Source of the DNA: Apostichopus japonicus
Lineage: Eukaryota; Echinodermata; Holothuroidea; Aspidochirotida; Stichopodidae
Length of the DNA stretch: 64,000 nt
NCBI RefSeq assembly: GCF_037975245.1
Contig: NC_092562.1
Location: 27,106,054 to 27,170,053, forward strand
Direction of reading: 5' to 3'
Program-made: the position numbers and the translations under genes
Notes under the pieces: model-generated
Seen by the model: only the letters and a program-made list of their open reading frames with translations
The model's database searches: none
What the model was told of the DNA's origin: nothing
Shown: positions 6,297 through 63,285 of the stretch, in pieces
Position numbering within the stretch: position 1 is the first letter of the stretch
How the letters are laid out: every line of letters begins with the position of its first letter

Positions 6297-6383
<87 letters not shown>

Positions 6384-33737: not shown

Positions 33738-36700
33738 GTAATGTTGTGTTGTTGCCTTCACCGAAGTCCACATTGTTGATATTTTATAAAGTTTGTATGC
33801 TATGTCTATACTTGTGATATGAAATATACCAAATGGTAAGAGCAACGTAACTTCTAACCTTGCAGTACCAAAATGTTAAGTTTTCTGTTAATTATTTGGA
33901 TCCTTATAAGACTTGTGATATCAGCTAATGTGATCTTGATGTCATTACTCTGATCAATATTTTTTGCATTGGGTGATGGACATGCTTTATTTATGCAAAT
34001 CATATTACACTATGTGAGCTATTTAATTTACATTTCTGCTCATCTCTCATTCTTCAAGAAAATCAGGGCTTTACAACATCCTGTTTTACATGTTCATATC
34101 TGTTCATATCTACATGGGTCAGATAGATCACTGTACTGTTTCGACTGTACAGTTCTGTGAGACCATCACCATTCAAATATATTTCATGGTACAGTGAACA
34201 CCTTGATAAAATTATATCTGGAATTTGAACATCTATGTAATCATAAAAATATGTACAATTATCAAATGCTGTCCTATGTATCCTTAGGGGAAGAACTTAT
34301 AAATAGGTTTATTGTTGTCCTTAACCTTTAGCATGCAATGTACGCACTATTTAATTTATATAATGGGAGTTGTTAACGTTTACATTTTTTCCAAATTATG
34401 CAAGCCTTAGGGCAAATAGTGTTGAAAGTCAGTAAGGAAAGTCCTGTATATATGTAACGATGAAACTCCTAGATCAATTAAAGTTCACCCTTGTTTGTCT
34501 TTTCTGAATAACAATACACAACTTTACTGCAGAGGCTTAAGAAAGCAGCCAATCTATTAAAAACATTTTTTTTCTAATGAGCCATACTACAGGGCTTTTG
34601 ATGGAATCATTATGATTGTTTACTTGTTGATTTGATTTTATTCGGCAAGATATCAATCTTCATCTGCATACAAACAAAAAATTGCACATAAAGATAAACA
34701 TTTAAAATACAAGAAGGGAATAAACTTAAATGCATCGAAAAGAAGATAACATGCCAAGGATAACCCTTTAAGCTAAAAGCTTATTTCCAAAGGGGTCCTT
34801 AAAACCAATAAAATACAAAAGATAAGAAATAAACTATTAAAACAACTAAAACATGCATACAAACACTGTAAAAAAGAAAGATAATTACAAGCTAGACATT
34901 CATATGATTTAAAAGGTAGGCTTTGGCATCTTTTTTTAAATTGTAGTTCAGCAGGATGGATTTTATGTTTTCAGGTAGCCTGTTCCAGTTTTTAATTGCA
35001 TTGTAATAAAAAGACCCAGCACAGTGCGTTTTAATTTTGGGAAGTTGAAAATTAAAACTACTACCTCTTGTGTTATGGTTATGAACACTATTTACTCTAA
35101 TAAAACTCTCCCTCATATAGACTGGAGAGGTACCATGGAAAACATTAAAAACATGATTAAGACGAAGCTGTTCAGCCCTAGTGTTGATGTTCAAAATACC
35201 AAGAGTTTTAAAGTCAGCATGGTTAATGTGGTAATAAAAATCTTTACCCAGAATGAATCTGACAACTTTGTTCTGGGCACATTGTAATCTACGAGCGTGG
35301 TACTTAGAAATACCTCCATACCAAGATGAGATGGAATAATCAAACAGACAAAGAACAAGGGCTGTACAGATGGTCTTTTTCATATTTTGATTAAAATAAT
35401 TAGCTTGCCTGTAGAGGAATTTGAGTCGAGAATTTGTTTTACTAATAATGCCAAGAACAATTTGTTCGCCATCAAGGTATTGGTTTAATTCCAGACCGAG
35501 GTAAACAACAGAATGTTTGGCCTTAATCAGTTGACCATCACAAATAATTGAGAAGTCAGTATACTGACCAAGTTTACGTTTGGTCCCAAACAAAATCAAC
35601 TCGGTCTTACCCATGTGTAACGACAATTTGTTTTCAATGAGCCATTTATTGCCACTCTCCAGGTTAGAAGAAAGATTTTTTTTAATATTGTTAGGATCTT
35701 TGTCAGAGTAAATTAAAGCACTGTCATCGGCATATATGTTTTAACTTATTATGTGTTTCTGTTCTTTATGTTTACTGGCAGTAAACAAAAGTCTTATTTT
35801 TAACAGCTATACAGCAATTCCACTGACATTTAAGTCAGTAAATAGCCAACATTTTGGGAGCTACCACAATTAGTAACAATTGAATCATTACATTTTTGCC
35901 TGAACAGCCATAATAGATTAAGTTCATACTTGGGATGTGTATCGATCCCCCACGGTGTGTGCAAGGTATCTATTTAATTGAATCGGTGGAGTCACATTCT
36001 GAAAACCTTTAAAATATGATAACTGTATTAAAGGTTAAGCTACAATGACCACAAGTGGTATGTAGAGTGAGTAAAAGAACAAGATAATGTGTGGTCAATA
36101 TAGGTCGAGTCTGTGAACCCTGAAAATGTTGAATGAATTTTTATGCTAGGAAAGTGGATCCATGTTAGTAAGTAGAAGAAACCTATTGAGCCTGGAGAAT
36201 ATCTAAGGTCAATTGAGGTCAACTATGTAGACCCTTGTCAACTTGATAACTTAAACATGTTAAGCTTGAATTAATATAACATTTGGTATTTAGGTCTACA
36301 TTAGTGGGTACAAGAATAACTTTGCTTCTTGGGAAGTCTACTGTCATTTAAGAATATCAGAAGTTAAAGTCTTAAAGCTCTTGAATGCACAAATGTCTCA
36401 AGTACGGCATGAATAAACATGTTAGTTTATATAGAAATCTACAAACAGAGTGGACCTGGCAGATAAATTTATGTGAATAATGTTTAACACTTAAAACTCT
36501 GAAAAGTATTACCGTTGAAGGTTCTTGAATCTAAAATGAGGAAGTTATTACTCAGCCACTTGGCTCTCTGGTTTGTACGTGAGGTTGTTTGTAAGTTATG
36601 TTACTTTCCTGCTGTGGAATTGCAATATATCTTAATCATCTTTTGTTCTTCTTTTCTTAAATAAAATTGTATTATATTTATTATAAATTGTTATATTATG

Positions 36701-37846
36701 GTTGGATTTAGAGCAAATTGTTTTTATGCCATAATATGTATTGGTTTACTAGTTTCTTTGGGACCCTGACATGTTTCTTTTTTTTCCCCAATAACTCCAA
36801 CACAGGTGGAAAAGATCTTAGGAAATTTGATTGCCTCATGTTATAATACAAAATATTTGTTTTAATGTAACGAGAGGATTGTATAAGTTAAAAATGAGAG
36901 CATACATCTGTTTCGTTTGCAAGAATTTCATTGTATTCTTTCTTTTCAATGACAGTTAACATGTTATCTCTCAATAGAACCAGTTAAGATGACTTTCCTT
37001 GGAGTAAAGCCGTTTGAGCCTGAAAATATTGAAACACACTTTCAGTGTCACATAAGCGAATCCGATAACATTGCAGCGAATGCCCATGTAGAGTCTTTCA
37101 GGACTGTTCGGACAAGGAATAATGATGATGAAAATGTAGATCCACCAGCTCCAGTCTGGAATAATGGTATTTATAAACATTGGAGGGTAACATTGGACAA
37201 TGGTGGAAATAATGATGCCTTTGGGGTGCTTGGATGTGAAGCTGCATTAAATGAAAAGATCACTACACCAATCTCAGGGATATTTATGAGATCAGATGGT
37301 GAGTTAGTCACAGCTGTAGTTATAGGGCCGTTCATACAATATATCATTAGATAATGATACAACGTTATTACATGTGGTATGATAATGATATGTGGACGTT
37401 TTACTGCAGCGTGTTTAGAATAGATTACATAAAGTGGGCTTAACACATCACAAGTTTCCTGTTATATGCATATATTGCATATTTTCTAATGTATTCTTGA
37501 CAAGAACATTTTTTGGGAACAATATTCAAGCAGGGTGGCAAAAGTGGTTGAAGTGATTATATAAAATATTATATTTAGCATAGTGTAATAAAGGGTAAGC
37601 ATAATGTGGATGAAGATAATGACCGTGTAAATGTCAACTTCTAAAAATCCAGCAAATTTTGTATCATACCATTAAAAAATCTTCTAGAGTTTTACTGGAT
37701 ATTGGTACTGTAGTATTAAGTAATTTGAAGCATTTATGTTGACATGCTATATAAGAAGTGCTGACAAATATTATCCTTACAATAATTTGGTAAAGAGCTT
37801 GTTAACTGTTCGATGTAGTAATAATACCATATAGATTTTACACAAG

Positions 37847-37885
<39 letters not shown>

Positions 37886-40800
37886 TATTACAACGTCCTT
37901 GATTTCAGCTGATATTGTACCGAGTGATGAGTTGGTCTCATTAACTGTCAACACTGGTGATGCATGTGTGAGCATTGGTATGATGAGCACCGGATCGAAG
38001 AATGTTGCAGACTTCAGATGGTTGAAGGATAATTGTCACCGAGACGACGCTCAATGAAGCTGAACAAGGTTGTTGTATGTTTTAGCCCATTTATTCACAC
38101 GCGTGGTTTGAACAAGACCACGGTGAAAACTAGAAAGTAAAGATATCAATACATCAATATACAAACATTGGTGAAACAAACACATTAATTGAACAATTCA
38201 ATAATAACATAATAATAACATAATAATGCATTATATTTCTTCTTATAAAACAATGCACAAAAAAGGAAGAAGTATAACAAATAACATTTGGTAACATGAA
38301 ACAAGACATAAGGAAAGATTGGCGACAATTACATTCTTTATAATTAACTTACAATCGTTACCGGGCAAAACCAACAGCACGACAAACTGCGGTGTACAGG
38401 GGTTTACAGGGATTAACGGCGGCTTTCTGGGGTTAACGGCGGCTTTCTGGGGTTAACGGCGGCTTTCTGGAGAATGTACAGAACACCAACAAAGTAATAA
38501 CCTCTGGCGATACATCTACTCCAGATACTCTTACAAATAAGCAAACAACAAATACACAGTAAAAGGCAATAATAATAAATAACAGGCACGAGCATGCAGC
38601 AACATCACATTAAAGGCAAATATCTATAATGCGATATTAAAAGAGATATACAATTACAATATCAAGCCCCTTAATACTTATATAAAACAATTAGAATACT
38701 TACATACTAAGGAACAGTGCTACAGGAACACATGCGACGCCTCTCTGAGCCAGGAGAGGAATGAAGCATGTGCACTTCAAAATACGCAAGTATACATCGA
38801 TTACGTAATTGCGCATCGATTACATAAGTATGCAAATCGAGGTGGATAAGAAAGGCAACTAGTAAATGGGCAGTATTGACCTCTGCCCGACCTCGACCAA
38901 GCGGAAATTTCCATTTGGTCACGCTAAGCAAATAGCACACATCGGCAACGATGACACTCCCCCCACTGGAATACGTCATATTCAAGTATAACAACCTACA
39001 ATACCTAAACCACCCCATCGATGTACATTAAATTCCAAAACAGCTTTAGCAATCAAAATTGTGACGTAAAGCTTCTTTACCAAATAAACAACCATAAAGC
39101 CTGACACACCTGACAGCTCAATCAGGAAGATAAAACACATCAACTATATTTACATGAAATTTCAACGATAATGCTTGCAAACACTTAAGAAGAAGTGCCG
39201 ATTGAAGTAAAACAATCCTCTTGACCAACGGCCTTCCCTTAGTAACCCAAAAATCCTTCCTTACAATACTTAGCACCCACTCAATGCCAACATGGGCGAT
39301 ACTGTGTGCGTCCTTAACAATAGACTCAGCAATAGGATGTTTACCAGATATTATACACGGGTGTTTGCTGTCAAACTCTTTCAAACGGCCGCCTACCCTG
39401 AGAAGCCCTTTACCATCTAGAAACGGAGTTAACGTTTTAAGGGAACTAGATGCTCTGACAGCCTTACCCTGACTTAACCTTTCTAACTCAGAACAGAAAC
39501 TAGAAGACTGACTCTTACGGAGGAGGATATCTCCTGCACGACGAACTTCTTGGACAGATAATCTGCCCAAAGGTTTCTGCCCCTTAAAAAAAATCGCACA
39601 AGACGCAAGAGCCACGCTAAACCTCTCTTCATTTTAAACCATGAAGAATAATGATTCATGATCCTATATAATGGCTCATCTGAATCTCCAACATCACTTA
39701 ACCCAGGAGGGGACACATGACCAGCAACAGTCGTATAACCCACAGTGACGTCCGTCTCTTTGACTTCAGGATCGTCATCCGTTAAGACGAGCGAATTAAG
39801 TTTAGCAGTTTGCCAATCGTTCTTGTACCGACCCAATTTGTCAGGACCGTTAAACCATTTACTACTATTAAACTTTGAGAAGGAACAATTTCTAGTAACT
39901 AGATCAGCTGGGTTAGCTTTAGTTTCAATATGGAACCACTGTTGCGGGTCACTGAACTCCCTGATAAGACTAACCCTATTGCCAACGAAAACATGGAATC
40001 TTCTGCTATCATTGTGAATATACTTCAAGACAATTTCCGAGTCTGTCCAAAAATACGACTTAGCAAATTCAAGAGCTAACTCCCTTCTCAACAGAGAATC
40101 AACCTTTACGGCTAATACAGCAGCTTGCAGCTCCAAACGAGGTATAGTACGTAGCTTTAAAGGAGCAACTTTACTCTTACTCATGACTAACTGTACATGA
40201 ATTTCCCCTTTCCTATTTACACAGCGTACATAACAGCAACAGCCATAACCTTTAGAGCTAGCATCTGAAAAATGGTGAAGTTCGATGAATGCATCATCAA
40301 AGGAACAAGGCTTTATACAACGAGGTACCCTCAAACGACTAACAGAAGACAACGACTGGGCCCAGGTGTCCCAAGCCCTTACAATATCAGGGGGTATCTC
40401 CTCATCCCACGACAACCCACGGGCTGTAGCTTCCTGGAAAAGGAGCTTGCCTGAAAGGACTACAGGACTTATCAAGCCTAGCGGATCGAAAATTGACGAA
40501 ACTATACTAAGCATTCTCCACCTGGTTAACAAGCCACCAAAATCTTTCTCCAGTGCGAAGAAGAACTCATCGCGCGAAACCATCCACTTTATACCTAAAG
40601 CCCTGCTTTCACTACTAGTACCAAAATCTAGAACTTCCTTAGCCCTACATTCCACGGACACTTCAGCTAGCAATCTGAAATTATTGACTACAAACTTAGT
40701 TAACTTAAACCCTCCACTTTTCAGGGCCTTGGGGGTTTCCCTAATAATGATCTCAGCATCTGATTTACTCGACACAGAACTAAGACAATCATCTACATAA

Positions 40801-43800
40801 AACGATCTTTCAACCGCATACTTAACAAGCGGAATCACACTCGGCAGATCAGTAATTGTACGCCTGAGAGCATAGGCGGAGCTAGCCGCACACCACACCC
40901 CTCCAAACAAATGTGACGTCATACGAAGGTATCTTAATTTACCATTAATGTACCATAGGAATCGTAGGGCATCTCTATCCCTAGCTGGGATCCTAACTTG
41001 ATTATACATAGCTTCAATGTCTGCTTGAACTGCTATACTATGTTGCCGAAATCTCAACAAGACCGGCAGAAGCTTATTAATCATGTCGGGACCCTGCATA
41101 CAACGATCATTCAAAGACTTGCCTTTGAAGTTACTAGCGCAATCGAAAACTACCCTAAGTTTGCCTGGTTTCTTCTCTGACACTACAGCATGATGGGGTA
41201 AATACCATATCCTGTCTACCATGAACAACTCTGAATCTGGTACTGCCTCTGCATAACAGTTATCTACAAGTTTCACAATCTCAGCGTCATACCTATCATA
41301 AGAGCCGTTCCTAACAAGTTTCTTGTACAACGAGTCTAACCTAGTTTTGGCAACAACAAAATTATTTGGGAGGGTCTCCGACTGCCCTCCAAGGAATAGG
41401 AAGTTCATGGTGACCATCCACTTTCCTGTGCTCTTTGTCCCACAAAGATATCACCAACTTGTCCTCGTATGACCAAGACGGGAGATCCAACCCCGCATTC
41501 TCTATTTCCCACAAACGAGAAACATCAGTCTGAATAGTCGAAGTAGATATAAAATTTGAAATTATCTTACGACTCGGGAGGCTAATGGGAGATTGTCCAT
41601 TAAGACTCCAACCAAACATGTAACGTACCGCAAAGAGCTCCCCTGGAGCACCCCGCCTAACCTCCAACGGCACAAGTGCTTCAGAATTATCTTGACCTAC
41701 GAGAATGTCAACTGTAATATCAGTACTTTGATAAGCAGGTAGGGGACCGATACCACTAAGATGGGAATAACATTCCAGATCGACCATAGAATTCTTAACT
41801 GGTATTTCGTCAACTACGTAAACGGCAGATAATTTTAAGATTTCACCCGATTTAGAAGACAAAGACAGTTCTACCATTTCGGATTGCTGAATACCTGACG
41901 AGTTCAACGTTCTAAGCTCAAATTGATAAGAGTTACCAGTGATTCCTAATTGGTTGACCAATGCACGGGAACAAAATGAATTACTGGATGCACTCTCTAA
42001 CAATACAAATGCGTCACACAAACTGTTCACGGTGGCCTGAACTAAAGGCATATGTGTACTTTTGCTACGAGAGAAGCTAGCATTAGAAACCTCAATATCA
42101 GGTGAAGAATTTACAGTATTATCATCACAATGAATGTACATGGTATGTTTCCTACCACAACCTCGCACACTACAAACAGAGCGCTTGCCACAATCACTAG
42201 TGTTATGAGAGGCGCGAAGGCAGTTATGACACAACTTATGCTTAATTACAACAGTCAATCTCTCTCTGGGGCGCAATTGTTTAAACTTATCACAATGCCA
42301 CAGACGGTGTGATTGTTCACATAGTACACAAGGAGGTTCAGCCCTAGCGTACATTCCAGGTTTTGCTGCCTGGGCACCTTCACCAGTACACGTATTGGAC
42401 TTAGACAAAGAGATAGAATAGCTGCTAGAAGTACTTCTTTGTTCACGTTTACACTTATCTGAACGCTTGAGATACACGTCGCCATAAACTGGGTCATTTA
42501 CCTCACTGGCGATTTCACCTGCGAATTCAATGAATTCTTTAAACCCTGGATAACAACCATCGGCCCGTTTGGCCTTCAATGCAAATTTTTTCCATCTCAA
42601 CTGCACATAGTTAGGAAACCTGGCAACTATTTCGATTAAGACTGCTTGAGAATCAACCTCCTTCAAAGTTTTTAACTCTGAAAGTACAAGGAATGCATTT
42701 TGCATATCATCAGCTAACTGTTGTATGTCTTGCGGCAGTCTAACTTGTTTACCAAATCTTAACTCGCGTATTAAACGCTCAGTGACTAGGTGCGAGTTTC
42801 CAAACCGGTTTTCTAATATGGAAATGGCTTTAGCATAACCGCTACTACCTCCAACTAACTGGCAACTCCTAATGGCCTCTTTAGCAGAGCCCGACGTATA
42901 CTGCATTAACCTAGACAACTTTAAATCGTTGTCGTCACATACCCTATCAACATTGGCCTCGAAAGCCCTGATGAATTGATGATAATGTAATGGGTTACCA
43001 TGAAATATTTGCAGCTCTACCTTAGGTAAATTCAATAAATGTAGAAATTCTTTACGAGATAAATCTGCATTTGGATTATCCTTAAGGGATTGATCCTCAC
43101 GTTTTACTTCAGCAGAATTCAATGCATCTTTAACTAGATTTAAAGCGGAAATGTAATCTTTCTGCTTGTCACAGAAATAGTCGTCGCTCTCGTCAATATC
43201 CTTCTCATCAGTAAGCGTCTCGTGGTACTTGTCGTGAGCCAACGTAAACACTTGGAAAAGATCTTTCAATAAAATTACATGACTGTTAATGTCCACGTTA
43301 CCTTCCGCGATATACTGCCTGACACGATTAATCTGCGTCGTAACAGCCCTCTTAGCAGAAGTCCTGGGAGTCTTCAGGTCTTCCATGAGTCAGCAGGCTG
43401 ACGACGAGTACATTGGTGCTACGGGAATCAGGCACGTGGTACACTATTTCTGTCACTGGAATACGATGGTGAGCTTTTATACGACAGGAATTGGTAGGCT
43501 TATAGACGACAGGAATAGGTGAATAAGAAGCGACGGCCAGATACCGGACGGCGGAGGATATGCAGGACTTCCGGTTGTCGATACCCAACGATTTTTTCAC
43601 TGTCACCGAGACGACGCTCAATGAAGCTGAACAAGGTTGTTGTATGTTTTAGCCCATTTATTCACACGCGTGGTTTGAACAAGACCACGGTGAAAACTAG
43701 AAAGTAAAGATATCAATACATCAATATACAAACATTGGTGAAACAAACACATTAATTGAACAATTCATTAATAACATAATAATAACATAATAATGCATTA

Positions 43801-46800
43801 TATTTCTTCTTATAAAACAATGCACAAAAAAGGAAGAAGTATAACAAATAACATTTGGTAACATGAAACAAGACATAAGGAAAGATTGGCGACAATTACA
43901 TTCTTTATAATTAACTTACAATCGTTACCGGGCAAAACCAACAGCACGACAAACTGCGGTGTACAGGGGTTTACAGGGATTAACGGCGGCTTTCTGGGGT
44001 TAACGGCGGCTTTCTGGGGTTAACGGCGGCTTTCTGGAGAATGTACAGAACACCAACAAAGTAATAACCTCTGGCGATACATCTACTCCAGATACTCTTA
44101 CAAATAAGCAAACAACAAATACACAGTAAAAGGCAATAATAATAAATAACAGGCACGAGCATGCAGCAACATCACATTAAAGGCAAATATCTATAATGCG
44201 ATATTAAAAGAGATATACAATTACAATATCAAGCCCCTTAATACTTATATAAAACAATTAGAATACTTACATACTAAGGAACAGTGCTACAGGAACACAT
44301 GCGACGCCTCTCTGAGCCAGGAGAGGAATGAAGCATGTGCACTTCAAAATACGCAAGTATACATCGATTACGTAATTGCGCATCGATTACATAAGTATGC
44401 AAATCGAGGTGGATAAGAAAGGCAACTAGTAAATGGGCAGTATTGACCTCTGCCCGACCTCGACCAAGCGGAAATTTCCATTTGGTCACGCTAAGCAAAT
44501 AGCACACATCGGCAACGATGACAATAATGTAAAGAACAGTGCTAGTAATGGAGATGAAAGATGGCCCATCAGTGGACAAGTTGAGGTAGATGACGCTGGT
44601 GTCTATGAGTGTCACATCAACGGTGAGAGGAGTGATGCGAAACAAGGTCTGGAACTGTTGATAGTAAGAGGTTTGTAATGTTGTATTCCAGATATGAACT
44701 GATTAATAGCTACTTAATAAACATATGTTCGTTTCAAAGACATTTATAATCATATTTTGTATTAAAGCCAAACACGATTGTGGTTCATGACACAATAGCA
44801 ATCTCTTGTCGATGAAGTATGATAGTCTATCCGGTAATTTGAATATCCCAACTCATTGTCTTGTGCCTTGATTTATGATAGTTTCAAGTGTGAATTATTT
44901 GTACCAGATGAATCCTTCCTTTCCCCATTATGCAAATCACAGGTGGTGATGCTAGCAACAAACAACAAGTTCTTTAAAGCTATAGTAGCCTTGTATAACA
45001 TTGCATGTTATATATTGCTGTATCCTTCATATGTGGTAGATTTGGAATGTTTACATAAACTGTTTGTCCTTACTTCATCACTAGTGTAAGGAAGCACATA
45101 ATGGACATGCACATTGACACCTTATTACACACACTGCCAAATTTTAAAAATTTGAAATGGACAGTTTTACACACTTGCTACTATCTTGCCAAAAGGTTAA
45201 AACCAAACAAAATGTGTTTTACGATCATGTACTAAATTACAATAGAGTTACAATTCTGCAAAGTGTCATTTTTAATGTTTATGTGCAAAACTTTAACAAT
45301 CTGGTAATTACTATTTTGAAAAGATTTTCTAAGTGAATAAGACGACAATTATCTGAAAATTGCAGTTTTGCGGAGATGCGTTAATTGTGTAAGATTGTAC
45401 AAGTATGTAAATTACCGTTTGGTACACTTGCCAACATCTTGAAACCATCCACAAATCCGAAACTTGTTGCAGACTTACTACTTCTTGTCAAAATGTCCAC
45501 CAAATGTATTTTGCCATTCACAGATTTTTTTCACTTCAATTGCCATGATGACATTGACTACCTTTGCCGTGGCCAGATGTATCTATTAAATGTCACCATA
45601 TTAGAATAACATTGTACTTCCACATTATTTGGATGTGGTTGTTACTTCCAAGTACAGAAACTGCCAGCACTTTCGTTAAACTATGAACTTGAGTCATCAG
45701 ATTACACTCTATTGGACAATAATACTATTTAAATGGATTACCTTAAACTGGTATTTAATTTAAAACAAAAAGATCTACATATATCTATAGATTTTTGCTT
45801 TAATGCAAAGTTTTGTATTCGAGTACTTAATCGAAATAATTATGAATTCCTATTATTTGAGATGGATTACTGTACCTCCGAATTGAGTTATGTTTTAAGC
45901 AACATCCTTCACCAAAGGAAAATTGGTTAGAGTCGCGACAGATGTGACAGGTTAATGCTGCATTTACAGAAATTACTTTTATATAGACTAATTGGTATTA
46001 GTTTAATTTCTTAATTAATATTAGACAGATCTTCTTTCATCTATATTTTTTCTAGAAAAATTTGCTTTTCTCAAATTAGTTGTTTCTTGTTAAATAAGCA
46101 TCGCAAGTTAACAAGTAGCAATTGTGTCAATATTATAAATTTCAAAACAAGTGTGAGAGCAAGGACGGCATGCTTGAGGAATGGGTACACTAACAGAGGA
46201 TATGATTAATATGTGAAGCCGCAACCGTTATCAAAAAAGCAATTAGCGCCGGTTTTTGGATTGTGCTCTTCCAAATGCCTACTTTCAGTGGCGGAGATTT
46301 CTTGTCAGAAGTAGGGGGGGGGGGGGGGTTGCAGGCCATTGATGAAATAAAAAGTCATAACTGCTGGCTCACTATCTAAGTGGAGCGCCACCATAAGTTG
46401 GCGCAAAGTGCACAAGAATTTTTTGGCAAATATTGCCTCCCAGATTGCAGTAAATGGCACTGCCCAGGCCTTGAAAAGCTGCATTTAACCAGGGGCGTAT
46501 GCAGGATTTTCTAACCCGGGGGCGCGTATTACTATCTAAGCGGAGCGCCACCATTGGTTGGCTCGCAGCGTACAAGCAAATTTCTGGTTTTGGTACCCCC
46601 AGATCACTGGAAACTGACCAACCATATGTACACTTTTGCCTGAGAACCAAGTTTATTCCAAATACTTTTTTTCTCATCAATAACCTTTTTGAAGATTGTC
46701 ACCAGTCACACATCATGTTCGACTTCATCACATATCCTGTGGGTCATTGCTTTTGTAGGTGATTCTTCATCGCGGCCCACAATATCCGTCAGCCCCACTG

Positions 46801-49800
46801 TTCAGAATTTGAAAATTAACAATTCTCGTGCATAAATTCACTTCAAAACATACCCATAATGTTGCACAAAATATCATCTATGGACAACCGATATAGAAAA
46901 ACCTCCTTCAAACCCTAACAGACGGGTCAAAATTGCACGAGTATGATGAAGAATGTTGGTTAGGGAATTTTCGAAAATTCAGACGGCTACTAAAAAATTT
47001 CGTTGAAGGAAATAGAAATATACCAGATATTTCCGAAACCGAACACTACACACATCGACAGTTTTGAGCATGGGCGCAGATCAGTCTTGGATAATGATGG
47101 GGACGCGTGTCTGTTCTATGACACTATCTAAGCGGAGCGCGACCATGGGTTCACGCGTAGCGTACGATTTTTTTGGCCAAATATACCTCCCAGATCGCCG
47201 GAAATAACACTTCCCAGACCTAATAATGCTCCTAAACCTCCTTAAGTTTTAGATCTCATGGCTTAGAAATTTAGTTTGGAGAAATACATGGGCGTCTGCA
47301 GAAAGAAAATCAGGGGACAAATAATCCAAGTAGACTTTTGTATAAACGATGGGTCTGGGGTCCTCTCCCAGAAAACAAATATAGGCTGCCGCAAATGCAA
47401 TTTCCGTCCTATATTTAACAACTGTGGATAAAATACAATAAAATGAGAACTTTTGCATGTCATTTGCACAATGCTGGATCAAACTGCGCCAAAGTTCAAT
47501 ACAGGGGAACTTGAAATGCAGCTATTGGTCAAGACAAATTGGTGGGGACACGGTATATCATGTCCCCACTACTGAAAAAGTTGGTGGGGACGCGTCCCGC
47601 TGTCCTCACCAGGATCTGCGCCCATGGTTTGGAGGCTGTTTATCGTTGAACGCCATTTTCATGCTCACTGATATGATGTGATATCTGCTGTTTGCTTTAC
47701 AAATTCGAATAATTTTGTCACTGTTCCTCTTTCTCTTCCCGTTTTCTTGCCGTATTTTCTACTCCATCCTTTTCTCCTTTTCTCTCTTTCTTCTTTTTCT
47801 TTTCCATCCTTCACCTCGTTGAAGTTGGCAAGTGTATACAGTTCCAAAGCTATTCAACGGCAACAAAACGTTATTTTGTGTATGTCTGTTGTGGGGTGAA
47901 GTTAGCGCTATGAGCTACAAGTTCCAATGCGCAAGGTGGGGGAAAGGGGCTAGAAATAATGTGTGGGCGAATTCTAACTCGGTTTTCGGTCGTTAATTGT
48001 TGATGTAGCCTACCAGGTAAAAGGTTGAACCATTTCAAATTTAATAATTTGATTTATTATGCCATTTGGAGCACATAACATAGGCTATAACAGAACATTA
48101 CTGGCAAAAACTAGGGGGGTTGATTGTGTGGGCCAACCCCCCTCTTCAAAAAGTGGGGGGTTTACCCCCCCCCCCCCAACCCTCCCTGTTTCTCCGCCAC
48201 TGCCTACTTTTGTCACTGTGGTATTTGAGAGATCACGCTTGGATAGGTCGTCTGAATACATGAGAAGTTGCTGCAATAATGAATATGAAAATAGACCATG
48301 GCTGGTACATTGTAATCCAAAATTCGAAATGCAATTCTATAAAGTTCTTGCTTAAGTGTTTCACTAATAAATGTTGGATTTCATGAGGAACAATACACAT
48401 TCAGCATAGTGACGGTGCAGCACATGTATATTTTACTATATAGTAAGATAACTAACTATCATGTCAGCTGCATAATCATAACTTACATCTTTGCATGATC
48501 TTTCGTAATATCAGCTTGTCCAGCTTATCGATGGGGCCCAGATCATTGTGATGGTATATGTGATAACTGCTATAACGGAGGCATTTGTGATGAGAACAGT
48601 GGAAAATGCATTTGTGCGCCTGGATTCAAAGGAAGAAATTGTGAAGAAGGTAACAGTTTTCTGCATGTTTCACTATATATCAACATATATTCATTACAGA
48701 GAAGGATTCTAAATAAAGTGAATTTCAAAATCATAAATGTATATAACATTTGTTCAATTTCACTGGTAATCCACTTCACTTTTGATTTTTTTTTTTAAAT
48801 GACGTCACTTGAGGGAATCGAGCAATGGGCCAAGTCTACTGTTTCAAAAGCATTTAGACCTTAAATCTTGCACTTAAAGGCCTTATATAACTGTCATGTT
48901 TCCTTGTTTAGGTATATGAGTTCTTTTAAGCAATCAAGTAGAACACAGTCGACGTAGAGTATTAACAAATAACATGTTATAATTTATTGCGTTACATCAT
49001 GCTGTACAGGACAGATATGTAGGACGACATGTCCAAGGTTACTTGATGACAGATGGAGAGACAGGGTGAACAAGGACGAGTAGACGGCATTCTTTAACTT
49101 ATATACCAATATGCAAACACACAGCTCATTAGCACACAGGTGCAGATTATATAATGTAGTGCATCATTTGCACACGTACATGTGAATGCATATTCAATAA
49201 CATTACAATAACATCTGTTCAAGTTCACTTGTAATCCACTCCACTATTGATTTTTTTTAAATGACGTCACTAAAGGGAATCAAGCAATGGCTCAAGTCTA
49301 CTGTTTCAAAAGCTTTTAGACCTTAAATCTTGCACTTAAAGGCCTTATGCCGATCGTGCCTTTTCTGTCGCTGCGCTTTCTCTTTCGAACGAACTTCCAT
49401 TTCACGTTCCTGACTCTACCTCCCTCTCTGTTTCAACTTAAAACATTTTTGTTTGATTCCTAGTTTCTTTTTACCCTTGGTTTCCCTAGTTTCTTTCTAC
49501 TTGTAAAGCGCTTTGAAATGCTGTATTAAGCGCAATATAAATATGATTTGTTGTTATTAAAGGTATGCTGTTGGTAATTTCAAAACGTTTGCTACCATAT
49601 CTGCAGATTAGAAGGGGGTTCTGATATGGTGATGTGTTAGGCTTGATATGTTCAGAAATTCGAAAACCCAAGTGTATGCCCTTGACAAATTTAATTGTGT
49701 GATTTGAGCGGACTCACTTAAAACTTCTAATTAAGACAGTTATAGCCTTGTTAGCCATTGCATGCTGTTTGTGTTTTGTCTTCAATCCAGATTATATACT

Positions 49801-52800
49801 TGGATATTGTCAGGTAGTATTAATTTACCTAGAGTATTAAGAATGGTTTAATCATATCCTATTTTGTAGGCAAAACCTTATAACTTTTATTATTTTAAGT
49901 TCAACAACATTCACAAACTCACATATGCAAAATTACAACAAAAACCTATATCCTTGATTATACCGCAGCCTGTTGATGATACTGAGAAAGGTGTCAGCAA
50001 AATCAGCAAAGCTTATTCAATTAAGTTTCCTTGAACTGTTTGAACTGTAATTTACACCAAATATCAATTAAATTCAGTCATTCAAAGCCAACATATTTGT
50101 GATTAGGTTGCATATTAGGGTTTTCTTGATCATTATATATGGATATTGTCAGTGAAATACATGACAGGGTGCATGTACCATATTTGTTATTTTTAAATAA
50201 TTTCCAAATGTGTTGATAACACAATTTTACTAGCCCCGTTATATTACTTTGTTGAATGCGCTTGAAGTATTTATTACATTTGACAATAAACCTTTGCACT
50301 CATTATTCCTGTTCCTTTGCTTTTAAACAATGTATTGTTCTGCACTTGACTATGAACATGCAGCTTTTGTGTTGACTGGTAACTAATGATGTTGTATGCT
50401 CTTTTAGAAACAGCAATTAGTTTGAGATGCTTCTCAGGTGACTAGGGCAGCATTGTATTAATTAATTTATATTTTTCTATTAGGTTGTGGAGGTAACAGA
50501 TTTGGAGACACATGTGAGAAGAGATGTTCTAAGAGTGGCAGTGAGGGCAGTTGCAGTAAATACCTCTTCTGCCTGGCCCATCCATATGGCTGTAGATGTA
50601 ATACAGGATGGAAGGGGTTGGACTGCCTTACTGGTAAAGCTTTACTGTAATATTTGTTAAGGTTTTATCATTCCTACATTATAGTGTAATTTAGGGATGT
50701 ATTGGTTTTGGAATTTAAATTATGGTCGGATACTGGATTCAGCCCAAAAATCAATTTACCAGATTTCGAAAAATTGACATAATCCAACAGTTTCCGGGAT
50801 TGATATGTCACAAAATGTCAAAATTTGTGGTGTGGGGTGGGGGGGGGGGGAGGTGTACGTGCGGGTGGAGATTAAATTAGAAAATTCTCCATACTACTTC
50901 ATTCCTAATCATGTTATTCAGTAAGTGAAAATTAACAGAGTTATTTTCTTTTAATTGACTTTTTACAGAATAAGTATTGTTAGAACCCTACTACTTATAA
51001 GGCTTTAAGGTAAAACCCCACAAATATATTCTGACATTCTCTTAGACATTTGGCCTATAAACAAGACATTTCAGGACAACTTACTGCACAGTGCACTAAA
51101 TTTTGGTAAACTATTTTACTCCATTATGAGTGACATCGGTTCTGGCATTTTTTTCCTGTTAATAGAATTGACACTGATACCATACCAACAGTCTGGTTAT
51201 GTCCATCATGTGTGTCAGATAGTTTTTATAAATTTTATGTTATATTAACTTGTAGAGTATGCTTGTGTGAATAAACTTCATTATGTGTGTTACTTTTTGC
51301 CAGCTCAATATAAAATTCCCATCAGTTCAAACTTCATTTAAATAAGCAAGTTCTTTACCTAGCCATCAGCACGTGATTCGGGAAACTATGGAGCCAGCTG
51401 CCTACAGACCTGTCACTGTCAGTCTGGGCAGTGTAACAGATAACGTTAGTTACAAAAAAAACTTTGTTACAAGGGAAAGATTGAGCTTAACTGTATATCA
51501 AAGTTTATCAATCATTGCATTTATGGTAAAGTACTTCATGTAACAGAGTAAATTGCTAACTTTTTGAAATATTGATTTCTTTGTTACATTTTAGAGTGTG
51601 ACCAAGGAACCTTTGGAGCCAGCTGTCTACAGACCTGTCACTGTCAGTCTGGTCAGTGTAACAGATTTACAGGAATCTGTACAGGATCACCCCCAGGCTG
51701 TAGCAGTGGATGGACAGGGACTAATTGTCAGCAAGGTTGGTTGAAAACAATTAACTTTGTTACAAGGGAAAGATTGAGCTTAACTGTACATAAAAGTTTA
51801 TCAATCATTGCAGTTATGGTAAAGTTATTCATGTAACAGACTAACTTGCTTCATTTACTAATATATTGATTTCTTTGTTTCACTTTTTAGAGTGTGACCA
51901 AGGAACCTTTGGAGCCGACTGCCTACAGACCTGTCACTGTCAGTCTGGTCAATGTGACAGATTTTCAGGAATCTGTACAGGATCACCCCCAGGCTGCAGT
52001 AGTGGATGGACAGGGACTAATTGTCAGCAAGGTTGGTTGTAAAAAGTTAACTTTGTTACAAGGGAAAGACTAAGCTTAACTGTATACCAAAGTGTATCAA
52101 TCATTGCATTTATGGTAAAGTACTTCATGTAACAGAGTAACATGCCTATTTTAGAGTGTGACCAAGGAACCTTTGAAGCCAGCTGTGAACAGACCTGTCA
52201 CTGTCAGTCTGGGCAGTGTGACAGATTTACAGGATTTTGTACAGGATCACCATTAGACTGTAGTAGTGTTTGGACAGGGACTAATTGTTTGGGTTAGTAC
52301 TGTTACTTGATGGATATAGATCCACTATAACATTTGATACATTATTAGTGGAAAATGATTGCTCTTATCTCAGGGCTACTCCACTGCGTTAAGTTGCAGC
52401 TTCATTGACAAAGCGAAATAGGTGAAATGAATCCTTTGTGTCATGAGGATGTGTTGCAGGATCCCAAGGAACAGGTTCCTTCAGAGCTGTTAAGGATACA
52501 TTTGTTCAGTGCAATAAAAAACAGGAAACTCAGTTTGTATAGAATCAACAGGGAGTAAATATCTGATCATATATTTTAAATCTTGTACACTATTAAATTA
52601 CTGTGCGTTGTTTCAACCCTAATGGTTAGCAACCTTTTCAGCTCCTCCAAGTCCTCCCATTACGGTCAAAAATTAGTCACCAAAATCAAACAATTAGACT
52701 TTTTCATTGCCACTGTAAGAAAATTTGTACTCACTGGGACATTTGATATCCATACAAATGCACCGGATTATACTACAAGTTTAAGACGGCAGCTGAGACT

Positions 52801-55800
52801 GGTCAGGATCGCACGAATATTTTATAGTTGTTAAAGGTTGTTAACTGTCAGCTATATATTTTATAAAAAAAATATTACTCCTTGGACCACAAAAATAATT
52901 CAGCCAATTTTGGTGGCTTGATATCTTTTGACCAGTTCTCTCAGAGAAGAAATGCCATCATATCATTAAATCGTAAGTGATCTCTTCATGATGTTTTCCA
53001 CCATCTCGTGACTTGTTTGTCAGTTAGAGGGGGCGTGAAGGTGAAGGTGGTACATTGAGTTTTATCTCGAGGTGTCCTGTTGTTCCATCTAACTTAATTG
53101 TGATGATACTACACACGTTGGAACATGTTATGCTGTTATCATGGTAGTACTTTCCTTCTCTAACTTTTTGATATTTCTTCATTTCCATTTATTTTGTATC
53201 TGAAGGCTTAAATGTTTTTGCCAGTCAGTCAAATTTCAATTTTTGTAATGACTAGTCACAGTGGATTGTTTCTCAAGATCCTATTTCTGGTGTCCCTTTC
53301 AACTGTTTCATTTTGATCATACCTCGAGTCTACCACGATATTTTCTTTGTTTGAGGTGCTTGAAGACTTGTCTGAGAAAAAAATTAAACTTTGAGTTTAA
53401 ACCAATGACATAAAGTCTTCACAGTACAAAAGAAAATATATTTTGTATTGTTTTCATTGAATAAATATATTTTAAATATGCGTGGAGTGGGTATTAACTT
53501 TCAACTGTTCTGATCAATATATAGTCCTCCTATCATGAACACAACATGAAACCTCAAGCACAAGATTCTGGGCAGAATGCAGATTAGGACTAAGAATAGC
53601 AGTTGAGCTTATTAAAGAATACCACATGTGGATTGGGTTTTAACTTTTCATGTTCTGATCAATATAAAGTCCTCTTACCATGAACACAACATGAAACCTA
53701 AAGCACAAGATTCTGGACAGAATGCAGATTAGGACTAAGAATAGCAGCTGCGCTTATTAAACAACACCTCATGTGGACTGGGTTTTAACTGTTCATGTTC
53801 TGATCAATACATAGTCCTCCTACCATGAGCACAACATGAAACCTAAAGCACAAGATTCTGGACAGAATGCAGATTAGGTCTAAAGATAGCAGCTGGGCTT
53901 ATTAAAGAATACCACATGTGGAATAGGTTTTAACTTTTCATGTTCTGATCAATATGTAGTCCTCCTACCATGAGCACAACATGAAACCTAAAGCACAAGA
54001 TTCTAAACAGAATGCAGATTAGGTATAAGAATAGCAGCTGCATTTATACCACATGTGGAATGTGTTTTAACTTGATATGTTCTGATCAATATAAAGTCCT
54101 CCTATTATGAACACTACATGAAACCTAAAGCACAAGATTTTGGACAGAATGCAGATTAGGTCTAAAAATAGCAGCTGTGCTCATTAAAGAATACCACAAG
54201 TGGAGAAAAAGAAAGAAGACGAAGAGTATGATGAGGTAGATGAATATAGAAAAGAACAAACTGATGCAAAAAAAGGCCAAAATTACATAAATGGGCTTTA
54301 AAGGAAAGTAGCATTTGTATAAACAGTTTGTTTTAAATATAGACATATGACAGTTTATGTAGAGATGCATGTAACATAATAATTTACACAACTAACCGTA
54401 GCAGAAAAGCAACGCTGCACACTTCATATGCATTCCATGATGTTTGTAATATTGGCTATTATGTATCTACCTGCACTGATAAATGTTTCTGCATGGGGAG
54501 TGTTGAATGTTATATGTTGACGGGAGAATGTCTGGACCAAAGTTGTGCTCCAGGCTATGTAGTTCACTGGGACGAGTAAAATATGGCTTGAATCTGGAAT
54601 GGGAATTGTGTGACTAGATGTTAGATGGAAAACCAACATAAAATAACAGCTTTGTTCAAAAAAAAAATTCCATTTTCTCTTAGTCTTTTGATAAATTACA
54701 AATTTTAAAAAGAAATTCATTGCCACAACCAAAGTGTGGCATTTATATATTACTTTAAGAAAAATGGTGTAAGCTTGATAGTTGGAAATGTGTTTATTTC
54801 CCTTGAAGTAGCACAGTTTCCAGTAGCCTCCTTCCATCTGCAATGTTAGGTTTTGCAGCAACAGGAGTCTTGGTCAGAGCTGAACTGCCCCTCTAAATAA
54901 TTAAAGTAATCAGAGTGTTGTCTGTTTATTCTAATAATGGTTAAATGTGTTCTTCACTTCCACTATATATCAACTTGAGAAGAGAAGGTGAGAATAAATC
55001 ATCACCAGTTAGCAATTGAGTGAAGAATATGTTAACCTTTCATATCATTTTTACATAAAAATGATATTACATTTAACGAGGGTATCTTATACGACAATAT
55101 TTCAATAGCGAACAGTACAGGAAATTACATGAAGAGCATTTTGATTTACAGAATGCATAGGACCACGTTTTGGGATAGACTGTGAGAATGATTGCCACTG
55201 TTCAGAAAGTTACTGCGACAAAGTAACAGGAAGTTGCTCTGGAGGTTGCAATCCTGAGTGGGTAGAACTGTCTTCACCCAACTTTTGTCAGACAGGTAAG
55301 AAACATTCAGTCATGATCGCATCAAGGGATTGTACCACTGTGTAATCTGAGATGGCATTCAAAGAAAACTTGGAAACATTTATAGTCATGAAGGAAAGTT
55401 ATGCATATTGACATGATTCATTGCTATAGGTGATGATGAGTCTGTACCTACTCCTGTTCTTGTCTGAAGCGTGATCATTGTAATTATAACGTTTCTTACC
55501 CCAATGAATGGAAATGGAACACAGACTGTTTCATTGACTGTAGGAAATATGTACATTGTTTCTTTCTTAAAAAAAATAGAGAACTTGGTTGTAAGAAATG
55601 CCTTTTTCACTTGAAGCTATTAGTTCTTCGTTAGTGGCTGATCATGATTTCTCGATTTTTCAGCACTTAGATCAGTTGGTAGCTTTGCAGCTTCTACACC
55701 AATTGATCTATGATAAACCACTGTTACCAGTATCATAGACAATTTGAATAGAAATATACCTACATGTTTATTGTTTCATGTTATTTCTGTGCATTAATAA

Positions 55801-58800
55801 ACAAATAACTTTGCATGTGAATGATACAACAAATGAAAATTGTGTTAATTTAGGATTTGTTATGAATTACAGCATTACAATGTAATTGAAAGCCGTGGCA
55901 GAAATGTGTGGGATTTTGCACAGAATGATCTTATATGTTAAAAAGACCACTGTGAGTGTTTCTCATTCTTTCCTCATTTAAGGTATAATAGATGCCGCCT
56001 ATACTCGTAAGAATCCTGGAGTAACAGTTCCTGTGACTTGCACAGCTGCCAAGGGTCCAAGTCCTTCAGAAATTTCTAATTTAAATTTTGTTCTGTCAAG
56101 ACACCATGAGAATTTAGATGACAATGGCATTTCTCCTGAAGAGGTTGTTGGTAATGCAACAACAAGAACTGCTTCATTTGTGGTAGATAATGTCACAGAT
56201 GGAGAGACATTTTTCTGTCAGCTGAGGAAAAGTGGCAAGAAATATGCAGTATATAACATAACTATAGATGTGTTTGGTGAGTAGCATACTTGCATCTGTT
56301 ACATTTTTACTTTAGGGGTCAACCGTGGTCTCATTAGAATTGCTAAGTATTAAGCCGGAAGGTGGCAAAGTCAATGTTTTTGTATGTTTGATACACAGTT
56401 TGCAACTTGTAACAGTGAACTAAGTATACTATCCAAAACTATGGAAAGATAACCTATACAAGGAGGATGTTAAATATAAATTACACTAACCATGATATGA
56501 CAATGTCTTAAGTTCTAGAGAATAAAGTTTGATATGTACCGGTAACACATACTCTCATGCTACCACACTTTTGGAGATTTGATTTCTTATTACTCATTTA
56601 AAATTGGTGTATCAATGAACTTCATGCTTTTTTTAACCTTACAATTAATACAACGTAACAATAGGTAAACTGAGTTTTACTGTTTTCTTCTTTCCTTTAT
56701 TTTACTTTAATTTCAATCTGAAGACTATGTAAGGCAACATAAGTTCCAATATTAATGTTGTTTGATTTTATTATGTGGCATATTGGTCCGTTAACTTTGG
56801 TGAGTACAAGTATTATATTGTTTTGGTATGGATGAATGTTAGTGAAGTCAACATGTGTCAGAATCAAACCTTTGAAATAAGATATCTACAGATCCAATGT
56901 TTATATAACATCAGTCTGTATATGGCTCCTTGCACATTGGCAAAGATCAAAAGTTATATAATGTCAACATAGTTCAGACTTATGTTTGCCCATGGTTAAA
57001 AGGTTGCACTTTGCTTTCAGTGTACGATTTTCTTCACAATAATGATAAGCATGTTAAAACTGCTTTATCAACTTTGAATAAAAGTAGAATAAAGTGGAAC
57101 TTGAGTATTTTCGTGATGATCAGGTAGCTCACAGTCAAGTTGTATTCTAACAGTCTGGCCTCCACCATATATGTTCATTGCTTGCAATTCTAGCAATATC
57201 TTATAAGAAAATATTGCAACTGATTATAATCTATGACTAGCTATTAAATTACACTTAATTGTACACACCTTCATATAACTTTAAATGAATTACAGACTAA
57301 CCCTAAAGGTAGCAACAACATTACCAAATGAGTGTTAGGTAATATGTACATAAGTATTATTATCACCAGATTTCGACCTAGCCTACAATACAGCTGACTT
57401 CAGAACTACAATCCATGTCCAACTGTAGAAATTGAAGAGAAAATTACTCATTATCCAATGGTTTTTTAGTGTTCCTTGTATAAAGCAATAGACCATGTTC
57501 ACGTCTGATGAAACGTTATCTGTGTTTTCTTTACTACTTTCCCATTTGGGCCTCTAGATCTCCCTGTACTGCAATCTGCTCCCAAAAGAGGTTCTATAAC
57601 TAATTCAACAGTCACCATCAGCTGGTCAGCCTGGGATGAAGGAAATGAAGATGGGGACCCCCCTGTCATCGGGTATACACCTTACTACAAGCTGGCATCA
57701 GGACTGAATTGGTCCATCCAGGATACGTCTACCTCTATCAAGGCCTTGAATTTCACATTTACGGCCCTCACACCAGAGGACAGGTACTCATTCATTGTAG
57801 CAGCAGTAAGGGAAGGAGAGATGGGAGAAGGTCCAAAGAGTCCAGTGCTGAATGCTACTACCATTTGTACAGGTATTTTGTAGTATATATTACATCAGAG
57901 TGCATATTAATAGTTACATTTGTCACATATTTTTTTTTGCTTGTGACATATCAAAGTAAGTGCATGTGATACTAAATGCATTTCTTGCCAGTGTTAAATG
58001 TTGTTGATTCTTTCCCACCCTTCTAGATTTTATTTTGTTATATGATTGAAAAGAACATTTTATTAGTTTAACAGCACTCCTCCATGAATTTCTCACAGTG
58101 GTTTGTGAGCAAACAAATAATGAGAGCCCTGCGACAAAATAGTTTGAAGTCAGTGACTTCATGATTTAATGAGAGGTATGCTTGCTGATCGGAAAAACTA
58201 CTCTACACTCACTATTAAGTACTACATGTTAGTATCAACTACTCCAAGACTACTGGAAATCTTCTGAATGAGTACACAATGTAACCAACTAAATATTGCT
58301 ACTGTATGGACTTATGGAAAATCTACTGCTGACTTCCAAGAAATAAAATAAACAAGTTACAGGAAGTTAATGTGTCCTCTCATTTGCACTCTGTCATACG
58401 AAATAGAGGCAGGGTTATTGATAAACAACACTGTGACATCACCAATGACATCATACTCAAGTTTAATTTCTTGGCAGTGATCTGTGCAGATAGATATTAC
58501 AGACAGGTGTAGGGTTTCTGATGTGGAGAGTAACTTTAGAGTTCAAAATGTTATTGTTCTACTGGGATTGAAAAGTATATTATTATGATTTATTGTGTTC
58601 AGACTGGTAAATAGAAAGGTAAGTAATACTGTGTGAACTGTGATCTAGGAGGACTTCCAGTCTCTGCTCCTTGCTATAATATATTGTAAAGGTAAACCCA
58701 GGGTAAGCAAGAGGATGGGGTATTTCTCTATAAAATACTCTCTGTTAAAATTTCAATGCAACTGATTATTCAATGCAATGCAACCTCTATTCTATATCAA

Positions 58801-60477: not shown

Positions 60478-63285
60478 GTGAGTTAAAATTCAGCTGCAGT
60501 ATTGATATCATCATCTAGTTTAAAAATCTGCATCTAAACAAATATAATATAGTAACGTTTGTGGTATGGTAGAATTTCTTAGATATGCATGTAGACGGTA
60601 GCGTAGCAAAGATTTTAGGTTGCAGAGATTGAGTGAGGGAGGGGTGAAGGGAGCTGGCTGTTAAACTTGTGGAGGTAGTTTGCATTATCATATTAAATCA
60701 TAATGTATTTTTATAATTTTACTTGTCATGTCAAATTGTTTTACGCGGTCAGATGTAAACTGGCCAAATATCATTGCACTGTGTTCACTGTTTTTTATTG
60801 TTTTTTCGGCTTTAATAGATCTTAATGATCTTTTAACAGCGAGCATTTAGTATAAAAGCCATTGCAACTATTTTATTGTAAAGTTGTAACGAATTAATAT
60901 TTGTGTTGTGTTGAATATCAGCATTACTTGATAATGAAAGCAACCCTTGCGATATGCCCCTTGTAAAATTCACTTTGAAGTGTCTTGTTACTGAAAACTA
61001 AAAATACATTCACCATGTAGTTTCTCTTAAGGATATGCCAACTCTCACAAACCTACAAACGTAGATTTTTTATTTAGATGTTAACCGTGACCAATGCGAT
61101 CACGATGGCGTGTGTTCCTATGTATGTGGTGTGCATGTGTAGTTCAGACTGATATACATGAAATAACAAGGACTTTGACAGCAGTATGCTTTAATGCCTA
61201 ACACAACGATTCTCTGTCACCCAGTGATGTCCCCTATTGATTTGGGTACAGATGACATGCATATAAATAAGTAGGCGATATTTAAATATCGCATAGCATA
61301 GCTGGTAGTTTATCGACATCCTCTAATCTATTTCTCTTTTGGGACTAGGTAAAACTTGATCAAACCTAACACCTTTGGACAAGGAATTTGCTCTTTTCAC
61401 AAAACTTCTCAGCGTTCACTAGACTGCAGGTCAACCTGTGACGTACATGTGCGGAGTCGGATGAGGAAAACTTTCGATCAAGCTATTCAGTTTAGCACTA
61501 AACTACGCCTATAAGACACTTTGTCATATTGTTAAAATCAAAATTACAACGATTTGTGTAGCAGGAGCGTGCAAAACACTTTCGAAAACCGAAATTTAAG
61601 GTCACGTTTCCCAGTCATCAAACTGACGAAAAACGTCCCAGGCTTTGGATTAATTTGTAAGACATTTGTGAGACATACTCGAAGCTTATATTCCATGCAT
61701 GTATTCGATTAATATTGCATCTCCTGACTGGAACCTAAAACCGCAAACACGATTTATTGCAACAACAAATGAAGAAATACCTGCTTTGTCGACAGATTTC
61801 ACAAGGTAGGCTTTTCAATTGCGACAAGACCTCGATATCGTACGGCACAGTATTTACACTGGCCTATAATAGCAGCGAAACTTACGAAATATGATCAGAC
61901 TTTGAGGCATTTTTTAACCATAATTTACTTTTAATTGAAGAATTGCTACCCAAAATAAATTAACAAATCTGTGAACAATTCTAACAACCGTTCTTAACTC
62001 TTGTAGCTGCATGTTTTATTGGAAGTATTGTATTTGGAAATTCCATTGTTATTGTTTCGCGTTCGCGGTATACTCCGCAAAAAGACGTCACACGGTGACC
62101 TGTACGTTCATCAGCTTTTACACTTCAGGTTCCTGGTCATTGAAAATCTGCTAACTTTGACATCAAATTTCTCTGTATTACTGTCTCTTTTGACTAAACG
62201 GGCACCACATTGTTGTTTATGTACTAAATGCTTTAGTATGAGCCCCCAAAATGTTTTTTTTTTTCACCACCAGCTATGTATTTTAAAGTAAAAATAATTC
62301 AAACACAATTTCTCCCTAACTGTTTCTTGTGTTGACTTTAAATTTGATAGGTTATATGCTACATGTAGACTAAATCAACTTTTTTAGTAGAAATGTTTTT
62401 TTGTTTTGCGATCGCGATATATTGGGGCACTGAACTACGCAAATTTCATGACAAACTTTGAAATTAACGCTCGAAGGACACGAAACCGATTTTTGTGTGC
62501 ACATTTTGAACTTTTACAACATTCACAAACTAAGTAACACTCCAAAAGCATGAATACAAGCTTACTCAGTTATGCTATTATTCAAGTATTTCTGCTTTCG
62601 GGTCCTGCCGTAATAGGGGATAGTATGTCCCTAGCCAAAATGTAACGTACCTGATATTATGAATGAACGTGACAAACATGCTCGGCTCGTTTGTAGCTCT
62701 GTATAGGCTACATGATGCTAAGCTGATATTCCTTCCCGAATTCCTACTGCAATTGGTATCGTTGGCCTCTATTGGCAAAGTTTTGTTTTTGGGTTGTTTT
62801 TTTTTCTAGTCTAAGTCCTACTTATTATAAGTTAGGCCTAGGCTAAGGTTAGTTAGGGTATTTTGTCTTATGTATAATTTTCTGAAATTTAGTAGCATCC
62901 ATTCAATAATTTTTCTGTTATAGCTTGTTGAAACGGCTATTTTCCTTAGTTCTAAACACTTTACATATGTACTTTATAACGCAAATTGTTTTTTTTTTCT
63001 TGTTTTTTTTGGGGGGGGGGGGGATAATTGTGTGCTGCCCACTGTGGTGTCACAAGAACAATTACGAAATAAGGAAAGTAACATTATCGAGACTTACTTA
63101 CTTACTTCTTTTAATATTCACCAAATTTGTACGGATATTGACGCTTTTACTACGTAATGCATTTAGAGAGGTCTCGGTCTTGGTCTCGAACACCCAGGTC
63201 TCGTCTCGGTCTCAAACTAATATGTATCGACAACAACACTGATAATCATCCATGACACCTGGCATATCTAGCAGTTTGTGGAGAA

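Follow-up and report, generated by a model that had tools for sequence, protein, structure and literature searches.

A 64,000-nucleotide stretch of the Apostichopus japonicus genome (C2:27106054-27170053, hereafter the window) was analysed, in which a BEL/Pao long terminal repeat (LTR) retrotransposon interrupts a coding exon, the second immunoglobulin-like (Ig2) exon, of a receptor gene. The insertion into the coding exon is real. It is also recent, because the two LTRs differ at 1 of 923 sites, and its mechanism is ordinary. Taken as a whole, the data very probably describe a non-autonomous BEL/Pao copy that was recently integrated, presumably in trans, into the Ig2 exon, most likely with loss of the Ig2 domain and with an insertion that is likely polymorphic. 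All genome searches were run on 671,581,487 bases in 35 contigs.

The element itself occupies 6,490 bp (38034-44523) on the minus strand, antisense to the host gene; the longer interval 37909-44670 is the Ig2 exon plus the insert. The parts were located as follows.

38034 to 44523, minus strand: BEL/Pao LTR retrotransposon (boundaries, LTRs, target-site duplication; Peptidase_A17)
38034 to 38956, minus strand: 3' LTR, 923 bp (LTR comparison)
43601 to 44523, minus strand: 5' LTR, 923 bp (LTR comparison)
38029 to 38033, no strand: target-site duplication ATAAT, left copy (sequence)
44524 to 44528, no strand: target-site duplication ATAAT, right copy (sequence)
37909 to 38033, plus strand: left part of the Ig2 exon, 125 nt (paralog alignment; Ig models all under their cut-offs)
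44529 to 44670, plus strand: right part of the Ig2 exon, 142 nt without the second ATAAT (paralog alignment)

On the plus strand the LTR ends read TGTCA...TGACA, and the single mismatch between the LTRs is an A at 38201 against a T at 43768. Joining 37909-38033 to 44529-44670 gave an exon of 267 nt in which one frame stays open for 88 codons (DIVPSDEL...LLIVR), in phase 1-1 and bounded by acceptor TTTCAG and donor G/GTTTGT. When the frame is read on into the element, a stop is met at 38055-38057, just inside it. A first-pass annotation of the window had proposed that removal of the element and one ATAAT restores an in-frame exon of this length and phase, which was reproduced to the base; its two 923-bp LTRs with one difference were recovered by computation, and the perfect ATAAT duplication and the stop were confirmed by sequence comparison. 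The best Pfam Ig model on the left part of the exon was Ig_4 (E = 8.6e-4, under cut-off).

The left half of the Ig2 exon was matched at least 23 times in the genome, itself included; all of these matches lie on C2 (10, at 26.65-27.53 Mb) or C16 (13, at 14.56-20.26 Mb). The host gene is one of at least 23 family members. All 22 paralogous exons read are 267 nt long between matching splice-site positions and uninterrupted at this site, align to the joined exon without gaps and have the acceptor TTTCAG and a GT donor, with identities of 83.9-92.9% over the aligned part; the closest is L002 on C2 (92.9%). Because 22 of 22 align gapless and uninterrupted, chance is excluded as the source of the joined exon, and the young insertion inside a coding exon that had been proposed (1/923 LTR differences) stands. 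Twenty of the paralogous exons are open; L019 and L020 carry in-frame stops and are likely pseudogenes. The picture of a single receptor gene with a simple null loss did not survive, as there are at least 22 paralogs in the genome and, in the exon model, skipping would keep the frame. An assembly artefact, by a chimeric join of paralogs or a collapsed repeat, is hardly credible: the gene does have near copies among its relatives, and its LTRs belong to a repetitive family, but the 5-bp duplication is perfect, the LTR ends are canonical, the halves join gapless into the expected exon, and the sequence probably comes from a PacBio HiFi assembly (excerpt of PMC10344927).

LTR divergence was 0.108% (1/923; Poisson 95% range 0.003-0.60%). 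Assumed substitution rates between 2e-9 and 1e-8 per site per year placed the insertion at 54,000-271,000 years (point age), with an upper bound of 1.5 million. For A. japonicus, a heterozygosity of 0.986% and a nucleotide diversity of 0.00146 are given in excerpts of the same paper (PMC5437941). The chance that a neutral insertion predates the common ancestor of the population was averaged over a flat-prior age posterior, assuming neutrality, constant size and no LTR conversion, and was about 0.001 with the first value and about 0.34 with the second. With an LTR divergence of 0.11% against a heterozygosity of 0.986%, the first value favours polymorphism; the second scarcely does. On sequence comparison the insertion is most likely polymorphic in the population.

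Coding content of the element was read from three minus-strand open reading frames (ORFs), which overlap and lie each in a different frame.

41362 to 43389, minus strand: long ORF, 675 aa, probably the gag part (DUF1759 weak, E = 5.9e-4, under curated cut-off)
39483 to 41450, minus strand: long ORF, 655 aa, reverse transcriptase (RT) and Pao-type peptidase region (Peptidase_A17; RVT_1)
39118 to 39633, minus strand: short ORF, 171 aa, partial integrase zinc finger (Integrase_H2C2, E = 0.0039, under cut-off)
39211 to 39217, minus strand: internal deletion junction, just under 1 kb lost (7-nt microhomology AACAATC; junction spanned in 6 of 30 matches)
38957 to 38966, minus strand: purine-rich tract beside the 3' LTR, putative polypurine tract (by eye)

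Assignment to the BEL/Pao superfamily, as made in the first-pass annotation, was borne out by the Peptidase_A17 match (PF05380, Pfam, E = 6.3e-49); the RVT_1 match was weak (E = 0.01, under cut-off), with YVDD seen by eye. No Pfam match to the integrase core was found in the element ORFs, and the region is deleted relative to copies L034 (C17) and L040 (C7), against which the deletion was seen. Both of these keep an open ORF in the integrase region (H2C2 E = 7e-8, DUF5641 E = 2e-28), on which the integrase core model was weak (E = 0.022, under cut-off). Copies L046, L049 and L051 were collinear with the present copy over the 1,500 bases compared. The same purine stretch adjoins the LTR in L034, L040, L049 and L051, and with one change in L046. 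A 161-base junction query gave 30 genome matches, of which 6 span the junction (C2, C9, C14, C15, C16 and C17), 10 make up five pairs of halves separated by about 1 kb, the arrangement expected where the region is retained, and 14 are halves on their own. LTR pairs of junction-sharing copies differ at 1/873 and 5/910 sites (C14, C15). A deletion common to copies on six contigs is best explained by spread after the deletion. Because six copies on six contigs share the junction, the integrase-less copies suggest a non-autonomous subfamily that is moved in trans, with the enzyme presumably supplied by relatives, and the present copy is read as a defective member of a BEL/Pao family that is not autonomous.

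The LTR search gave at least 42 matches, from the best 40 of 185 candidates. Twenty LTR loci were examined, yielding 12 sites with both flanks (five pairs and seven solo LTRs) and three loci with one flank. An exact 5-bp duplication was present at 10 of the 12 two-flank sites, this insertion included; in L047 it appears only on the reading that the first two bases of the LTR have changed, and in L048 it is absent. LTR pairs of relatives are also young (1/920, 0/932, 5/910 and 1/873 differences). The LTR tree was mostly unresolved and was not used for grouping the integrase-less copies.

An exon model of the host gene was built by eye from open frames and splice sites.

36978 to 37298, plus strand: upstream exon, N-terminal domain, position of Ig1, 321 nt, phase 1-1 (model)
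48515 to 48649, plus strand: next exon, first EGF domain, 135 nt, phase 1-1 (model; hEGF E = 1.4e-5, under cut-off)
50484 to 50633, plus strand: EGF exon, 150 nt, phase 1-1 (model)
55152 to 55295, plus strand: last EGF exon of the model, 144 nt, phase 1-1 (model)
55983 to 56276, plus strand: third Ig-like exon, 294 nt, phase 1-1 (model; ig E = 3.3e-4, 21.3 bits against a cut-off of 21.8)
57512 to 57880, plus strand: ORF with the first FN3 exon (fn3 E = 2e-6)
60195 to 60515, plus strand: ORF with the second FN3 exon (fn3 E = 2.1e-5)

A 290-residue ectodomain query (first exon, joined Ig2 and two EGF exons) was searched against PDB with phmmer and gave Tie2 (2gy5, E = 6.4e-33) over query residues 167-288 (122/290), which take in the last part of Ig2 and the first EGF exons. 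Three Tie2 sequences were matched at E = 6e-33 to 1e-32; the next, non-Tie match had E = 1.5e-5. Pfam matches of Ig and EGF models on the ectodomain were under their cut-offs, two FN3 matches were above theirs, and no Ig domain was matched in the first exon (position of Ig1). Beyond the window end, PF00102 (protein tyrosine phosphatase, PTP) was matched at 77574-77756 (profile 38-80, E = 3.7e-13) and 79080-79277 (profile 173-221, E = 1.2e-5), and a hydrophobic segment was seen by eye near 74460-74530, after the FN3 repeats and ahead of the phosphatase domain. Fifteen gene pieces were scanned there (one FN3 ORF twice, at two lengths), of which two matched PF00102, one matched fn3 slightly below its cut-off (24.1 of 25 bits) and 12 had no match; a kinase domain was matched in none of these 15 pieces, a subset of the ORFs of the region.

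The gene had been called Tie-like at first. The name holds for part of the ectodomain (the 122 residues above) and fails for the cytoplasmic part, where none of the 15 pieces matches a kinase and two exons match a tyrosine phosphatase; identity as a Tie kinase was rejected on these matches. Because of the Tie2 match and the PF00102 matches in cytoplasmic exons, the predicted product of the host gene is a receptor whose ectodomain is Tie-like in part and whose cytoplasmic portion resembles a phosphatase. Truncation of the gene at its 3' end was also considered. An initial search found no G-x-GR(T/S)G-type signature or homologous exon at that end; truncation was rejected on a conserved DGASRSG ORF in two paralogs, and then on the Pfam match to PF00102. 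The DGASRSG exon is conserved in paralogous loci L052 (C16) and L053, and six cytoplasmic pieces align gapless to L053 at 97-100% identity. The WPD loop reads WPK, for which reason the domain may be a pseudophosphatase; HC-X5-R is kept if the exons join as inferred. A single PTP domain was found in the disrupted gene, and 4 of 4 pieces of the upstream neighbour gene match PF00102, in two-domain order. A genome search with PF00102 gave at least 152 matches, from 150 of 548 candidates scored, many of them on C2. Recombination between family members is suggested, because Ig2 groups with L002 and the cytoplasmic part with L053. A narrow open-access literature search met no account of a Tie-ectodomain phosphatase family, which does not establish the family as undescribed; such a family is more surprising than the mechanism of the insertion.

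Under the proposed mechanism, an element without integrase core would have been copied from the young subfamily and integrated in trans, with integrase presumably supplied by a relative. Integration into the Ig2 exon of one family gene duplicated 5 bp, as is directly visible at the junctions. The Ig2 domain would then most likely be lost, whether by early termination at 38055-38057 or because the interrupted exon is skipped. In the model both neighbouring exons are phase 1, so that a transcript without the interrupted exon would be 89 codons shorter and still in frame. A null allele had been expected; with flanking exons of phase 1-1 it becomes one of two main outcomes. Use of the element as an intron, or its exonisation, with continued production of a full-length or altered receptor, is quite improbable against the stop at 38055-38057.

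Several points weigh against a recent and polymorphic loss of Ig2. No empty allele of the locus was found in the assembly with a 23-base empty-site pattern (no zero-mismatch match); at up to three mismatches the pattern gave 16 matches (12 paralogous exons, one at its own right junction and three elsewhere), the two 1-mismatch matches being paralogs, and a backward control gave 1 match. The diversity of 0.00146 leaves the polymorphism argument weak, and LTR identity could stem from gene conversion. The splice-site listing was restricted to phase 1 sites; exon pieces were picked as open, paralog-matching frames, so that a broken exon could escape; and the model is not clean for one EGF exon or at the FN3 boundaries. 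When changes in Ig2 are polarised with the majority state among the other 21 exons, 16 map to the host gene lineage and 2 to L002 (1 ambiguous). This suggests relaxed constraint on, or diversification of, the host Ig2 before the insertion, or else conversion of L002 to the family type.

Fixation in the species, with the gene a pseudogene or an Ig2-less receptor throughout, would account for the missing empty allele; 2 of 22 paralogs carry stops in the Ig2 exon, so family members do die, and the exon is accelerated in the host gene. With 1/923 LTR differences and a fixed-if-neutral chance of about 0.001 at a heterozygosity of 0.986%, or about 0.34 at a diversity of 0.00146 (both values excerpted from PMC5437941), fixation is nevertheless unlikely.

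The acceleration was localised by comparison of exons. End branches of the exon tree were 0.073 for the host gene and 0.013 for L002, and their pairing had a support of 91/86, under the strong-support mark of the tool. The upstream 1.5 kb including the first exon was near balance (46-47 changes for the host gene vs 34-42 for L002, four outgroups), as was the first exon alone (11 vs 11 or 10 vs 13). Seven other exon pieces gave 53 vs 51 changes with 22 ambiguous sites dropped; this count excludes the last two FN3 exons as well as the repeated EGF exons and another single EGF exon. Two of the seven pieces extend slightly past likely splice sites. Ig2 against the seven pieces gave a Fisher p of 0.0036, uncorrected for the eight exons looked at. 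A relative-rate test on the intron downstream of Ig2 was discarded, as L002 has extra sequence there (28-111 for the host gene vs 221-433 for L002).

These counts bear on the possibility that the gene was already non-functional and the insertion a harmless passenger. Acceleration of Ig2 before the insertion and the many paralogs as back-up fit such a history, but seven ectodomain and six cytoplasmic pieces are open (the latter gapless and 97-100% identical to the paralog), though they were picked as open frames, and a gene evolving neutrally after its separation from L002 should have gathered some stops or frameshifts. A passenger insertion is thus also unlikely, to much the same degree as fixation.

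Separately, the ectodomain exons are rich in amino-acid relative to silent changes (40 to 13, host branch, seven pieces). This is about the neutral ratio, as would be seen in weakly constrained or diversifying receptors.

A wider proposal would join a large, fast-changing family with Tie2-like ectodomain and phosphatase or pseudophosphatase domain to an integrase-less BEL element that, moved in trans, makes presence/absence alleles in it, the split allele yielding an in-frame Ig2-less receptor by skipping. We regard this proposal as tentative and, taken whole, rather doubtful.

Among known systems, BEL/Pao elements share with the present copy the TG...CA LTR ends, the 5-bp duplication, the PF05380 peptidase, the YVDD seen by eye and the purine tract beside the 3' LTR. 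Target duplications of BEL/Pao elements are 4-6 bp (excerpt of PMC8220671), and the paired LTRs with TG...CA ends and a 5-bp duplication fall within this definition. The difference is the deletion shared by this copy and five others, which here removed the integrase core. TRIM-like groups are non-autonomous LTR retrotransposons moved in trans (excerpt of PMC10886601). As in those groups, the defective copies keep their LTRs and move, presumably with the enzymes of relatives; unlike them, just the integrase region is lost here and long gag/RT frames remain. A narrow literature search met no BEL example of non-autonomous LTR elements moved in trans. Tie/TEK (angiopoietin) receptors resemble the host gene in the Tie2 match across the last part of Ig2 and the first EGF exons and in the modelled series of Ig and EGF exons ahead of Ig and FN3 exons, where the Ig and EGF matches were under their cut-offs, and differ in that the cytoplasmic part is here a tyrosine phosphatase, not a kinase, and in the many family members. 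Receptor-type PTPs share the FN3 repeats, the hydrophobic segment (by eye) and the PTP domain; the host gene differs from them by the Tie2-like part of its ectodomain, the single PTP domain found, WPK for WPD and the signature DGASRSG.

With an empty state known from 22 paralogs and a young insertion, the locus offers a clean natural case for the effect of an exonic LTR insertion, and RNA could separate null from domain loss, since skipping of the split exon would leave the frame of the model intact. The BEL/Pao subfamily adds to this interest, as its spread apparently proceeds without an integrase core of its own, and the Tie-ectodomain phosphatase family merits a description of its own.

The neighbour gene (window 1-22000) has FN3 repeats and two tyrosine phosphatase domains, with signature exons at 13665 and 21332 and its first exons upstream of the window. 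The cytoplasmic exons of L002 resemble the first phosphatase domain of this neighbour; the cytoplasmic part of the host gene is itself 97% identical to L053. Minus-strand ORFs at 34892-35740 and 63445-63999 look like the C-terminal part of a non-LTR reverse transcriptase, probably CR1-like. Window positions 5798-6518 hold a long trinucleotide-type repeat with several frames open on both strands (runs of D, H, M and I).

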